Shown here piece after piece: positions 26,197 to 30,663 of a DNA stretch of 64,000 nucleotides. The stretch's first letter is position 1; every line of letters begins with the position of its first letter. The translations under genes were made by a program, and so were the position numbers. The notes beneath the pieces are model-generated. The model was given only the letters and a program-made list of their open reading frames with translations, was not told where the DNA came from and ran no database searches. Source of the DNA: Actinopolymorpha sp. NPDC004070 (GTDB lineage Bacteria > Actinomycetota > Actinomycetes > Propionibacteriales > Actinopolymorphaceae); the NCBI RefSeq assembly GCF_040610475.1, contig NZ_JBEXMJ010000009.1, positions 62,001 through 126,000 of the forward strand, read 5' to 3'.

Positions 26197-27885
26197 CTAC
26201 TCCACGGCCGAGCCGACGGTGCCGGGTACGGTCCATTCGACAACGGTGTGTCCGCGGTCCGCCCGGCGTGTGCAGGTGCCGCCGAGCCGGTCGGCCCTGG
26301 CCCGTAGCTCCGAGGGACAGGTCGGGTGATCAGGCTCGCGAGGCGCGGCGTCGTCGGTCACCGTGAGAGCAACGCGCGTATCCGACGCGTGGACAAGCAC
26401 CTCGACGTGTCCGGGTGAGTGGGCAGCCGCACTCGTCAACCCCTCGCGGACCGCGCAGACCAGCTCGGCTCCGAGTGTGGACGGCACGTCGTCGACGGAT
26501 CCGTACACGACCAGTCGTGGCACGAAGCCGAGGAACGCCAGGGAAGAGTCGATCTCGTGAAGCAGAGCATCGGACACCGACGACTGCGAAAGGTCGTCGT
26601 CGGCGGGGCGGGGCGCCGGGCGTTGATCGTCTACACCGAAGATCGTCGCGCGTAGTTGCTGGATCGAGTCGTCGAGCTCGCCGACCTCGTGTGTGAGACG
26701 TTGCCGGAGCTCTCCTTCGGTGGATCGTCCCTCGATACTGTGCAGCTGCGTACTGATGGAGATCATGCGTTCCATCGCTACGTCACAAAGCTTGCCGGCC
26801 AGCCGTTCGCGGTCTTCCAGCAGGCGGTTCTCCACACCGATTCGTTGTTGTTCGACGCGTTGCAGGACAGGTCCGATCTGCTCGGCAAAGATGCTGACGA
26901 GACTGTTCTCTGCCTTGGCACACTCTGCCAGCGGGGCGTCTTGGAGCCAACCGGAGAACAACACCCCGACGACGCGCTCGTGGGCGAGAAGCGGAATGAA
27001 CATCGCGGTGCCGATGGATCCGACTTCTCCGGCCCAGTCGAGCAACAGGTCCGCCCCGGGGTCGAGAACGATCTCGTCGACGATCACCGGCCGGCTTCGC
27101 TGCAGGGCCTGTTGGACCAAACCCCTGCGCGGGAGGCGAACGTGGAGGGCGCACATGTGGGACCACTCGATGATTCCCTGCAGTGGCCCGTTCGGTTCGG
27201 CCGGGTCGGTCAGGCCGATGGCGGTGCAGTCGGCACCGGCGAGTTCCCGCAGGCGCCGCGTCACCAGACGCATGGCCCGATCAAGGTCGATCTCTCCGAG
27301 AAGGAGTTGGGCGATCTCGGCCGCAATGTCCGGCCAACCTCGGCGTCGACGTTCGCTGTCGTGGATTTCGGAGTTCTCGACCGCGCTGTACGCGGCGTTG
27401 ACAAGAGCGGCTACGGCGTTCTGGTCGTGGGAGGTGAACGCTGGTTCGTCTTCCTCGGACACGACGCAGAGATATCCCCGAAGGTCGCCCGCTTTCCGGA
27501 CCGGAGTCACGAGGAGACCACGGGCCCGCGGAAGCTGGCTGCGAAGGATCCGATGGGCGGCTGGGTATCTCGACGCCTCGTCGAGGCGGATCGGACCTGT
27601 CGCGTCGCCGACGACATCGTTCAGTTGCGCCGCCAAGGGGGCGTAGTTTACGGACGGACCGCTCCGAAAGCCGCTGGTGACGACTTTGGGGACGAGTCCT
27701 CCGGTTTGCACCAGCAACAGGCCGCAGCGGCAACCGGCGAGGCGACATGCCGCCTCGATGATGCCTTCCAGAACCGGGTCGAACTTCGCCGCCGGACGCC
27801 GTGATTCGGCAGACCACCCGGATGCCTCAGACCGCGAGGAGTCCCGCGAAGGCGCCGCCGAACCGTGGCTATCGGTGTCAGCCAC
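26197..27885 (-). CDS. GAF-domain sensor histidine kinase homologue lacking the phospho-histidine
   Basis: A 562-residue protein with DevS-like layout: GAF 1 (about 40-170), GAF 2 (about 190-340), a dimerisation helix pair (about 355-420) and a GHKL-like ATPase end (about 460-555). In the dimerisation helix, where relatives have RIARDLHD, this one reads RLAGKLCDVAMERM, so the phospho-accepting histidine is Cys367 (codon TGT). The ATPase N-box is REGLTSAAAHS, with serine for the usual asparagine; the G1 box reads TVTDDAAP rather than DNG. It should not autophosphorylate in the standard way and may be a sensory scaffold. It follows kaiC by 53 bases in the same operon. No response regulator is adjacent. 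Confidence 0.82.
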   Translation of the reverse strand: MADTDSHGSAAPSRDSSRSEASGWSAESRRPAAKFDPVLEGIIEAACRLAGCRCGLLLVQTGGLVPKVVTSGFRSGPSVNYAPLAAQLNDVVGDATGPIRLDEASRYPAAHRILRSQLPRARGLLVTPVRKAGDLRGYLCVVSEEDEPAFTSHDQNAVAALVNAAYSAVENSEIHDSERRRRGWPDIAAEIAQLLLGEIDLDRAMRLVTRRLRELAGADCTAIGLTDPAEPNGPLQGIIEWSHMCALHVRLPRRGLVQQALQRSRPVIVDEIVLDPGADLLLDWAGEVGSIGTAMFIPLLAHERVVGVLFSGWLQDAPLAECAKAENSLVSIFAEQIGPVLQRVEQQRIGVENRLLEDRERLAGKLCDVAMERMISISTQLHSIEGRSTEGELRQRLTHEVGELDDSIQQLRATIFGVDDQRPAPRPADDDLSQSSVSDALLHEIDSSLAFLGFVPRLVVYGSVDDVPSTLGAELVCAVREGLTSAAAHSPGHVEVLVHASDTRVALTVTDDAAPREPDHPTCPSELRARADRLGGTCTRRADRGHTVVEWTVPGTVGSAVE

Positions 27886-27938
27886 CTGGCCATGCTACGC
27901 GCACCAGTCGGTCGATCGGCCCTGCAGATGGCGGCCGA

Positions 27939-29450
27939 TCAGGGGCCTCCGGTGGGGGGCCCAGGGGAGATGGGCCACTGCGGGTTGTCCGGAAGGCTCA
28001 TCGTGCCGCTCGGGAAAGGCGGAAGGCGATCGCCGATGTGCATGCCACCCTCGTCGATGTGGATCATTCTGATGGAGTGGTCGTGTGTGGATCCTCGGGT
28101 CTGCACGACGGCGACGGCACGTTGAATCTCTCGCTCAGGTGTTTCGACATAGCGGTAGAGGATCGTGACGTCGGTGAAGCTGGCGATCTCAGCCGAGATG
28201 GGCGGGCTGGTGCGGCCGGCCGTCCCGCTGGGGGCGGATGTCAGTAGTGCCGTGGTCTCGCCTTGCCGCAGCAGCGATCCGAGTGAGATGACGAAATCGA
28301 GTAGCGCACGCGAGGAGCCGATTCGCTCCAGTGCGGAGAGAGTGTCGACGGCGAGGCGCCGCGGACGATAGTCCCGCAAGACCGCCCACAACCGCATGAA
28401 GTGATCTTCCAGCGCCGCGGTCTCGGGGTATTCGCTGTTGACCCGCAGGAGTCCGGAGGCCTCCATCTCGTTCAGGTCGAGACCCCACCCGCTGGCATTC
28501 CGGTTGAGCTGTTCCCGGGTCTCGTCGAAGGTGTAGAGGAGACAGCGTTCGCCGGCGCGAACGCCCTCGGCGATGAACTGGAGACTGGTCAGGGTCTTTC
28601 CTGTCCCGGTGGGGCCGGTGATCAGGACGATCGCGTCCCGGAAGAACCCGCCGCCGCACATCTCGTCCAGTCCGTGTATCCCCGAACTGACCCGCGCGCT
28701 GGCCGCCTCGGGCCGGTGCACGATGTAGGCCATCGGGATGACGACCAGGCCGCGTTCGGGATCGATGGTGAAGAGCCACTCACCACTGCGGTGCTGGGCG
28801 CCGCGGAGCTTCACGATCTCGATCGTGCGGCGACGCCTCTGCTCGGACAGGTAGTTCCGCAGGATGACCACGTTGTCGACGACGAACTCCTCGACGTTGT
28901 GCCGGGACACGCCGTCGTACTCGGAGACACGTTCGGTCGTCACGACCGAGGTGACGCCCAGTTGCTCCATGCCGGCGACGATCCGGAACAACTCGTAGCG
29001 GACGACACCACCCAGTGGAAATCTGCTGAAGATGGCTCCGAGGGAGTCGATCGAGACCCGTTTGGCGTTGATCCGGCGCGTGGCGGCAGCGATCCGGGCG
29101 AGCAGTCCGCCGAAGTCGTACTCCCCGATCGTCGGTGCTTCGTCCGTGAGCTTGGCCGACGCGTCGACGAAGACCCACTTTCCCTGGGCTTCCCACTCCT
29201 CGATCGGGAAGCCGAGAGAGGCGGCATTGCGGCGGATGTCGTCGGCGGCCTCCTCGAACGTGACGAAAACTCCGGGTTCGTCGAAGTCGGCGATGCCACG
29301 GGCGAGGAACTCGACGGAGAACAGGGTCTTGCCGCTACCGGTGGTTCCGGACACGAGACAGCACCGGCCGGTGGGCAAGCCTCCGACGGCCACGGCGTCG
29401 AACCCGCTGATGCCGGTCGGAGTCCTGTCGAGTGCTGCGGCGTGTGTCAT
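27939..29450 (-). CDS. kaiC: KaiC-like tandem RecA-type ATPase
   Basis: A 503-residue double-domain KaiC homologue. CI Walker A is GTTGSGKT (residues 35-42) with catalytic EE in FVTFEEA; CII Walker A is GPTGTGKT near residue 280, with DE in YTFDETREQLNRNA where cyanobacterial KaiC has EE. The CII phosphosite region reads EIASFTDVTILYRYVE; by alignment the Ser431 position is Ala and the Thr432 position is Ser. So ATPase activity is likely and phosphorylation, if any, is reduced to one site. KaiC homologues outside cyanobacteria act in stress and timing signalling. The gene starts 4 bases inside the end of kaiB. Confidence 0.88.
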   Translation of the reverse strand: MTHAAALDRTPTGISGFDAVAVGGLPTGRCCLVSGTTGSGKTLFSVEFLARGIADFDEPGVFVTFEEAADDIRRNAASLGFPIEEWEAQGKWVFVDASAKLTDEAPTIGEYDFGGLLARIAAATRRINAKRVSIDSLGAIFSRFPLGGVVRYELFRIVAGMEQLGVTSVVTTERVSEYDGVSRHNVEEFVVDNVVILRNYLSEQRRRRTIEIVKLRGAQHRSGEWLFTIDPERGLVVIPMAYIVHRPEAASARVSSGIHGLDEMCGGGFFRDAIVLITGPTGTGKTLTSLQFIAEGVRAGERCLLYTFDETREQLNRNASGWGLDLNEMEASGLLRVNSEYPETAALEDHFMRLWAVLRDYRPRRLAVDTLSALERIGSSRALLDFVISLGSLLRQGETTALLTSAPSGTAGRTSPPISAEIASFTDVTILYRYVETPEREIQRAVAVVQTRGSTHDHSIRMIHIDEGGMHIGDRLPPFPSGTMSLPDNPQWPISPGPPTGGP

Positions 29451-29755
29451 GTCTCCGTGTCCGCCTCTGCGGGCACGTCAGCATCGGGTAGGCCCAGAGC
29501 CAGCGCTGCCCGCTGATGGTCGGAGAGGACTCCTATGACCCGCCGCGGTGGCGGAGGGTCGGTTCTGATCACGGTTGGAGTCATCAGAATTCGTGCTTCC
29601 TCAGCCATCTCCGGTCGACTGCCCAGATCGATCACCTCCACCATGTACCGCCCGGCAACCCGCGACTCGCACACATGTCGCAGGTTCCACAAAGCGGTCT
29701 CCGACCGCTCTGCGTGCTGGTCGGCGACGTATAGCCTGAAGGTGTAAACAGTCAA
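29447..29755 (-). CDS. kaiB: KaiB-like thioredoxin-fold protein
   Basis: About 102 residues. TVYTFRLYVADQHAERSETA at the N-terminus and ILMTPTVI with RRVIGVLSD later match KaiB, the partner that binds the KaiC CI ring. A TTG at 29753-29755 gives a KaiB-like N-terminus, and its first bases overlap the TGA of the truncated P450 frame (TTGA), implying translational coupling; an upstream TTG at 29771-29773 is also in frame. Neither has a clear ribosome site. It overlaps kaiC by 4 bases. No kaiA gene is seen, as expected outside cyanobacteria. Confidence 0.85.
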   Translation of the reverse strand: MTVYTFRLYVADQHAERSETALWNLRHVCESRVAGRYMVEVIDLGSRPEMAEEARILMTPTVIRTDPPPPRRVIGVLSDHQRAALALGLPDADVPAEADTET

Positions 29756-30663
29756 GACGGGGCGGTTGTCCAATCAGTGCTGAAGGTCAGGATGTCCGCC
29801 ACGGACAGGTAGCGCAGGAGCTCCTCGACGGCGCCGGGCAGCAGGTCCGGGTCGGCGCGCAGCTCGGCGCGCTGGTCCGGATGCTCCAGGAGCGCGAAGG
29901 TGCCGAGCGCCAGCAGGTTGGCGGTGGTCTCGTGGCCCGCGAGCAGCAGCAGGAAGGCCACCCCGACCAGTTCCTCGATGCTCAGGTCCTCATCGCGAGC
30001 CAGGTCGGACAGGATGTCGTCGCCGGGCTCGGCGCGCTTGCGGGTGACGAGCTCGGCGAGGTAGCCGGTCATCGCGCCGTACGCCGCCATCTTCTCCTCG
30101 AGCGTCTGGTCCCTGACCAGGAACTGCGCGGAGTTGACCTGGAAGTTGGCCCGGTCCGCGTAGGGGACGCCAAGCAACTCGCAGATCACCAGCGAGGGCA
30201 CCGGGAGCGCGAACTCCTTCACCAGGTCGACCGGCGGGGTCCGCCGGGCCAGCTCGTCCAGTTGCCGCTCGGCGATGCCGACGATCTGCTCCTCGAGCAT
30301 CCGCATGCGCCTGACCGTGAAGGCGCCGACGAGCTTGCGCCGCAGCCGGGTGTGGTCGGGCGGGTCCATGGCGATGAACAGCCCGGGGACCTGTGGGGAC
30401 GGCTCGGTGGCGACAGGCACGCCCGGGCTCTCGAACGGCACGTGCACGATGCCGAGATCCTGCCGGGAGCTGAACCGCCTGTCGGCCATGAGCGTGCGTA
30501 CCGCCTCGTAGCCGGTGACCAGCCAGCCCCGGTGACCATCGGGGAAGATCATCGGGCTGACCGGGCGTGCGTCGCGCAGCCGGGTGATCTCGCGGGGCGG
30601 GTCGAACGGGCCCGCGTTCCGCTCCATGGGCAGGCCGTGCGGGATGGAAACCGTCTGACTCAT
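29752..30663 (-). pseudogene. Cytochrome P450 truncated before the heme-cysteine loop
   Basis: About 303 residues of a bacterial P450 of normal quality: MDPPDHTRLRRKLVGAF in helix C, AGHETTANLLALG in the oxygen-binding I-helix, and EELLRYL (ExxR) in the K-helix. The frame then ends SVADILTFSTDW and stops. The last 90-100 residues, including the FGxGxHxCxG heme-ligand loop, are missing, so it cannot bind heme normally. Full-length relatives are about 400 residues. The break falls at the start of kaiB. The ATG at 30663 follows AAGGGA, and a SARP-type repeat lies upstream. Confidence 0.82.

Follow-up and report, generated by a model that had tools for sequence, protein, structure and literature searches.

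A conserved pseudo-histidine kinase encoded behind kaiBC in Actinopolymorpha that may signal by binding

Our analysis of a 64,000-nucleotide stretch of the actinomycete Actinopolymorpha sp. NPDC004070 (contig NZ_JBEXMJ010000009.1, positions 62,001 to 126,000; the window in what follows) concerned an operon in which kaiB and kaiC are followed by a gene for a two-GAF histidine kinase homologue. The third protein is a conserved and, judging by its motifs, apparently non-catalytic kinase homologue, and it is encoded behind a KaiC that belongs to a clade with an eroded CII kinase. We think it somewhat probable that, in this actinomycete KaiBC operon, a conserved pseudo-histidine kinase signals by binding.

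The third gene of the operon

All three genes lie on the minus strand. The start of kaiB (29447..29755; Pfam PF07689, 6.7e-20) was placed at a TTG at 29755, in a frame open from 29773; this TTG aligns with an ATG in A. rutila, and the product matches KaiB chains of the Protein Data Bank (PDB; best 8e-16). It overlaps by four bases (ATGA, 29447-29450) with kaiC (27939..29450; Pfam KaiC, 8.2e-105; NCBIfam PRK09302, 7.5e-164), whose product, aligned to solved KaiC chains, has two domains (CI, about residues 1-240; CII, about residues 250-475), each with a Walker A motif, so that the adjoining genes encode a KaiBC system. KaiA is not annotated here. The third gene (26197..27885) starts 53 bases past the kaiC stop and encodes a protein of 562 residues with the order GAF-GAF-DHp-HATPase. 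The original prediction had described this overlap and the kinase homologue after it, and had held the latter unfit for the usual autophosphorylation; coordinates and profiles bear out the first statement, and the motifs bear out the second.

The two GAF domains (GAF1, residues 34-178, 27352..27786; GAF2, residues 190-345, 26851..27318) exceed the Pfam cut-offs, whereas HisKA_3 (17.5 bits against 24) and HATPase_c_2 (14.5 bits against 27.4) fall below them. In the DHp-like helical hairpin (residues 346-417, 26635..26850), the phosphoacceptor column holds Cys367 (codon at 26785..26787; KLCDVAMER against DLHDLVIQR in the alignment). The histidine is absent from all four kai-linked proteins of the genus: the H-box sequence is LYGSVLQR in A. 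alba, with Tyr in place of Cys, and LC(D/N)VAMER in the other three (window, A. rutila and a third genome, G011). In the HATPase domain (residues 439-556, 26218..26571), Ser replaces the N-box Asn in the same three proteins. None of the four has the G2 glycines, and of the G1 glycines only one is left, in A. alba, which also lacks the G1 Asp. The protein shares its domain order and sequence family with GAF-GAF-HisKA_3 kinases of the DevS/DosT type, but differs from them in these losses: the histidine is retained in 25 of the 26 relatives aligned from other loci, and the H, N, G1 and G2 motifs, read by eye, are all intact in 23 of them. The short loci of these relatives yielded neither KaiB nor KaiC.

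Haem sensing by GAF1 was considered and set aside: its sole sequence match in the PDB is 2vzw, and the alignment has no counterpart to the His that presumably holds the haem in the GAF domain of DosT. An AlphaFold model (mean pLDDT 78.5, pTM 0.47) shows two GAF domains, a long helical hairpin (helices 327-387 and 391-416) and a HATPase-like domain. The 50 matches listed by Foldseek, mostly GAF chains of phytochromes and phosphodiesterases, have low TM scores (0.17-0.40 to the query), and we therefore used the model for architecture alone.

The order kaiB-kaiC-pseudokinase recurs in four of the eight genomes of the family (window, A. rutila or G022, G011, and A. alba or G018, where a PAS stands in place of GAF1), and KaiB is present in seven. 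With three candidates scored per genome, the pseudokinase and its type of KaiC were not found in the other four (G004, G008, G015, G026), of which G004, G008 and G026 hold a kaiBC that lacks the third gene, as does a second kaiBC on contig C2 of the window's own genome. Proteins from A. cephalotaxi and G011 are each 69% identical to the window pseudokinase, and G011 may thus belong to that species. The A. alba protein could be suspected of being a false ortholog, given its 40% identity to the window protein against 41% for an A. alba paralog, but a tree of 28 rows unites the four kai-linked pseudokinases in one clade (support 99/98). The KaiCs linked to them also form one clade (100/99, tree of 48).

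The ratio of nonsynonymous to synonymous substitution (omega) was computed by our own script after Nei-Gojobori for three sequences, as point values for the three pairs, and is 0.32-0.40 over the whole pseudokinase. The DHp-like hairpin is its most constrained domain (0.14-0.18), followed by GAF2 (0.15-0.25), the HATPase domain (0.39-0.52) and GAF1 (0.44-0.70), and the linker between DHp and HATPase reaches 0.94-1.61. These sequence comparisons show that the pseudokinase is under purifying selection and inherited together with its own kaiBC. Conserved gene order, a single clade and selection together imply that the linkage of the third gene is more than chance, and the pseudokinase is not a case of private decay. 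Constraint has been retained in the portion expected to dock partners and is looser in the portion expected to hydrolyse ATP, a pattern that fits output by binding.

A search among 5.8 billion proteins, in which 7994 candidates were scored (E <= 1e-30), returned six: the window's own, those of A. rutila and A. cephalotaxi, and three of at most 231 bits with HisKA_3 and HATPase_c. No close relative beyond Actinopolymorpha was thus among the proteins returned, a weak negative because the A. alba protein was missed as well.

Degenerate relatives are common within the genus, where the histidine is absent from 11 of the 18 other aligned rows (Arg, Ser, Asp or Cys in its place). Four Actinopolymorpha also conserve a tandem pair of degenerate DevS-like kinases (locus L181, 1186-4780, contig C13 of the window's genome, G000; relatives in L178, L180 and L182), one member of which has Asp for His while the other has the His and no recognisable ATPase motifs.

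KaiC with an eroded CII domain

Erosion of the KaiC kinase domain had not been anticipated by the original prediction. Alignment to solved chains (7dy1 and 4o0m for the catalytic position) places D309, I418, A423, S424 and Q450 of the window KaiC at the positions of E318, T426, S431, T432 and K457. The first catalytic glutamate of CII is thus an aspartate (28524..28526, minus strand) followed by E310, and the phosphosites S431-T432 are Ala-Ser (28179..28184, minus strand).

These replacements are those of a clade, which we defined by taxonomy and gene order and then backed by a tree with 20 of 66 other KaiCs. The 28 clade KaiCs fall on one branch (100/99), and their sister, from an Actinomycetota metagenome-assembled genome (L079), retains both glutamates and Ser-Thr. 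Among the 28 clade rows, D318 is found in 27, Q457 in 26 and T426 in a single, alignment-dependent row; S431 is kept in three (Ala in 20) and T432 in none (Ser 19, Gly 7, Asn 1, Ala 1). The 66 other KaiCs all have E318 and K457, and most have T426 (61), S431 (64) and T432 (49, with Ser in 16). Ten further rows from Streptosporangiales have D318, A431 and Q457 throughout and T426 in none. Eight repeats of earlier loci were not recounted, and three rows of another KaiC type (G971, and G940 twice) were left out. The 38 pooled clade rows have E318D in 37, K457Q in 36 and T426 in at most one, and in 14 of them neither phosphosite bears a hydroxyl.

The CI domain shows another picture. The window KaiC has its catalytic glutamates (E66, E67) and, in Y111 and D112, counterparts of F/Y122 and D123, which we take to be the KaiB-docking residues. 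Both CI glutamates are present in 27 of the 28 clade rows and D123 in 23; over the 38 rows, E78, K224 and R226 are retained in all and D123 in 33. As read from these alignments, the clade KaiC has an eroded CII kinase, with the catalytic and KaiB-docking residues of CI mostly persisting. The eroded domain is still at least as constrained as the other: in the window group, and despite the lost sites, omega is 0.08-0.10 for CII against 0.13-0.18 for CI. The four pseudokinase-linked KaiCs (window, L042, L047, L048) have a C-terminal tail, LPxNPxWP, which was not seen in the KaiC of contig C2; as it comes from one genus only, the tail was not used as evidence.

The third-gene position elsewhere and the flanks of the operon

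We compared the best 80 of 444 relatives, 19 of them actinomycete loci (L047-L065) and 61 others, with genes called by our own caller based on third-position GC and verified with profiles. The gene after kaiC in the 19 actinomycete loci encodes a PAS-HisKA-HATPase kinase in 12, a PAS-SpoIIE protein in four and the pseudokinase in two, and is lacking in one (Pfam was run on nine of these proteins). KaiB (E <= 1e-12) occurs in 20 of the 297 genomes in the order of genome G540, and 18 of these 20 have a PAS histidine kinase after kaiC. Histidine, Asn, G1 and G2 are intact in all 24 aligned kai-linked PAS kinases. A canonical kinase in this position among related genomes was what the original prediction would have taken as the mark of private decay, and outside the genus it does occur there. 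It is, however, of another class, PAS-HisKA, and the pseudokinase is therefore a replacement, kept across several species, and not the decayed kinase of its neighbours. That a SpoIIE phosphatase can occupy this position was likewise not anticipated by the original prediction. Such a phosphatase was seen in Streptomyces (L054, L062, L063 and L064, with the PAS of L063 split over two frames), and the SpoIIE-linked KaiCs form one clade (98/92).

For a profile of the kai-linked PAS we used 15 of the 16 third genes from actinomycetes (L063, whose frame lacks the PAS start, was left out). A PAS module lies directly 3' of kaiC in 17 of the 19 actinomycete loci, a count that is partly circular since the profile was built from those genes. 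Independent of that set is the count in the 61 other loci: in 25 the profile hits the gene that immediately follows kaiC, and in 38 some gene of the fetched stretch; the background, from 54 non-Kai loci that are not PAS-rich, is one match of 22.8 bits. The A. alba pseudokinase bears this PAS (142 bits), which has no match in the window protein, where GAF1 occupies its place. With PAS-kinases in the neighbours as well, the older arrangement was therefore probably a PAS-kinase, of which Actinopolymorpha exchanged the output and, in three species, also the sensor.

Histidine kinase-related proteins also read the state of KaiC and KaiB in Synechococcus, namely SasA and CikA. Both are enzymes, and SasA has a KaiB-like docking domain, for which a Pfam scan of the window pseudokinase found no counterpart. 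The spread of the kai-linked PAS beyond actinomycetes is in line with the kaiC-kaiB-PAS/histidine kinase operons described, in the excerpts consulted, for Rhodopseudomonas palustris and Rhodobacter sphaeroides (PMC4794148, PMC10076222). Purple-bacterial and actinomycete loci alike combine KaiB, a two-domain KaiC and an operon-borne, PAS-linked histidine kinase, and those excerpts report no KaiA, just as none is annotated in the window. According to the same excerpts, the purple-bacterial KaiC keeps its catalytic glutamates and has TSS (R. palustris) or Ser-Ser (R. sphaeroides) at the phosphosites, unlike the window operon, whose KaiC has an eroded CII and whose kinase is dead and bears GAF domains. 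DivL of Caulobacter, a histidine kinase fold that operates by docking and without kinase activity in the account excerpted from PMC4211667, has Tyr for His, as in A. alba, and acts through a docking surface. It differs in retaining its N, G1, F and G2 boxes, so that motif losses are wider in the window protein, in having PAS domains and in not being Kai-linked. The window protein, with its motif loss and constrained DHp, is a candidate DivL-like pseudokinase, with putative binding of a regulator.

A divergent gene flanks kaiB upstream in L049, L050, L051, L052, L055, L057, L061 and L173. It encodes a receiver with GerE by Pfam in L049, L050 and L173, and has a receiver-like start in the other five. 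A retained response regulator was considered as a candidate and rejected: for the receiver-GerE protein adjacent to kaiB in Sphaerisporangium, the genomes of the Actinopolymorpha family hold generic relatives alone (best 43% identity, 13-36 matches per genome).

Directly upstream of kaiB in the window lies a cytochrome P450 gene (29752-30744, minus strand) that is C-terminally incomplete: it matches residues 1-292 of a 408-residue relative in A. rutila at 88% identity, and the C-terminal part is missing. The roughly 145 bases that separate kaiB from the P450 gene in A. rutila likewise lack any long match in the window, and the window kaiBC may therefore have lost its own promoter. Third-position GC is 0.71-0.83 in the operon (26197-29773) against 0.91-0.92 in four neighbours; on contig C2 it is 0.91 for kaiC and 0.81 for kaiB. 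By its low third-position GC, a horizontal origin of the window operon is possible.

Proposed output by binding and its alternatives

The original prediction proposed an output by protein binding. The part of this proposal that rests on a conserved, apparently non-catalytic homologue stands, and a constrained DHp beside a relaxed ATPase domain fits it; the binding itself, like the partners and the signal, we infer from sequence. KaiBC would then be a nucleotide-driven switch, made of the CI ATPase and KaiB binding, and not a CII phosphorylation clock. The third protein would read the state of this switch at its PAS or GAF end. In Actinopolymorpha its DHp dimer would then relay that state to a docked response regulator or active kinase, much as DivL does. 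The third protein would in general be an exchangeable adaptor behind kaiC, which may be a canonical histidine kinase, a SpoIIE phosphatase or a pseudokinase. More tentatively, a whole branch of actinomycetes may do without KaiC phosphorylation. Its switch would consist of the CI ATPase and of KaiB binding, governed by the ATP/ADP state, and a PAS or GAF module that docks on KaiC would connect it to one of several interchangeable outputs: an active kinase, a SpoIIE phosphatase or a pseudokinase that acts purely by binding.

Several observations weigh against this interpretation. The N-box Asn is retained in A. alba. GAF1, the HATPase domain, the linker and the N-terminal tail evolve fast, which weak function would explain equally, and all four orthologs come from one genus. 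For the response regulator beside kaiB in other actinomycetes, the family genomes gave no clear ortholog (best 43%). Concerning KaiC, the window protein has Ser at the T432 position, leaving single-site phosphorylation possible, and some activity may be left despite E318D. The loss has an exception in the clade, Saccharopolyspora L065, with E318 and K457 retained, and parallels outside it, where the phosphosites are Ala-Ser in two and Ser-Ala in one of the 66 other KaiCs. Finally, CI E77 is replaced by Asp in four of the 38 clade rows.

The serine at the T432 position, common to all four pseudokinase-linked KaiCs, leads to the view that KaiC is still a phospho-clock using Ser424 or a new site. 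Two serines are described for cyanobacterial KaiC2 homologs in excerpts of PMC5520375, but E318D, K457Q and the loss of T426 occur in the same clade, 14 of the 38 rows lack both hydroxyls, and we regard such a clock as unlikely. We are similarly doubtful that the pseudokinase is an input, whose GAF domains would perceive a ligand or the redox state and set the switch through binding to KaiC or KaiB. The protein does have two such domains, and CikA of cyanobacteria also acts on input. A redox-input role was suggested for the kaiBC-operon kinase of R. sphaeroides (PMC5520375). Yet GAF1 is poorly conserved and does not match the DosT haem position. The pseudokinase could also pair with and tune another GAF kinase, which would do the chemistry. 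The many DevS-like paralogs of the genus and the constraint on DHp speak for such a hetero-dimer. Most of the aligned paralogs, however, are without the His, and no ATPase motifs could be recognised in the tandem pair of the window's genome; a clear active partner was accordingly not seen, and we give this explanation little credence. Least probable is that the kinase is decaying and remains in the operon by accident, for although GAF1 and the HATPase domain are relaxed (omega up to 0.70) and no close relative from beyond the genus was among the proteins that the search returned, the frame is open in four species, the whole protein and above all its DHp are constrained, and all four members of the one clade lie behind kaiC.

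In the literature that we searched, and for those searches alone, no description of these features was found. The word Actinobacteria is absent from PMC5520375 and PMC10076222; Actinobacteria are named in other contexts in excerpts of PMC10173096 and PMC8874327, two papers on Saccharopolyspora matched through the name of an author alone, and two freshwater strains are stated to have no Kai homologs in an excerpt of PMC8591293.

Signalling by KaiB and KaiC without a CII phosphorylation cycle would bear on both the origin and the dismantling of Kai timekeeping. The natural KaiBC pairs that lack both CII phosphosite hydroxyls, 14 among the 38, make wild-type proteins usable for that question. Moreover, the exchange of outputs (kinase, phosphatase, pseudokinase) behind one Kai-linked PAS hints at where the state of KaiC may be read.

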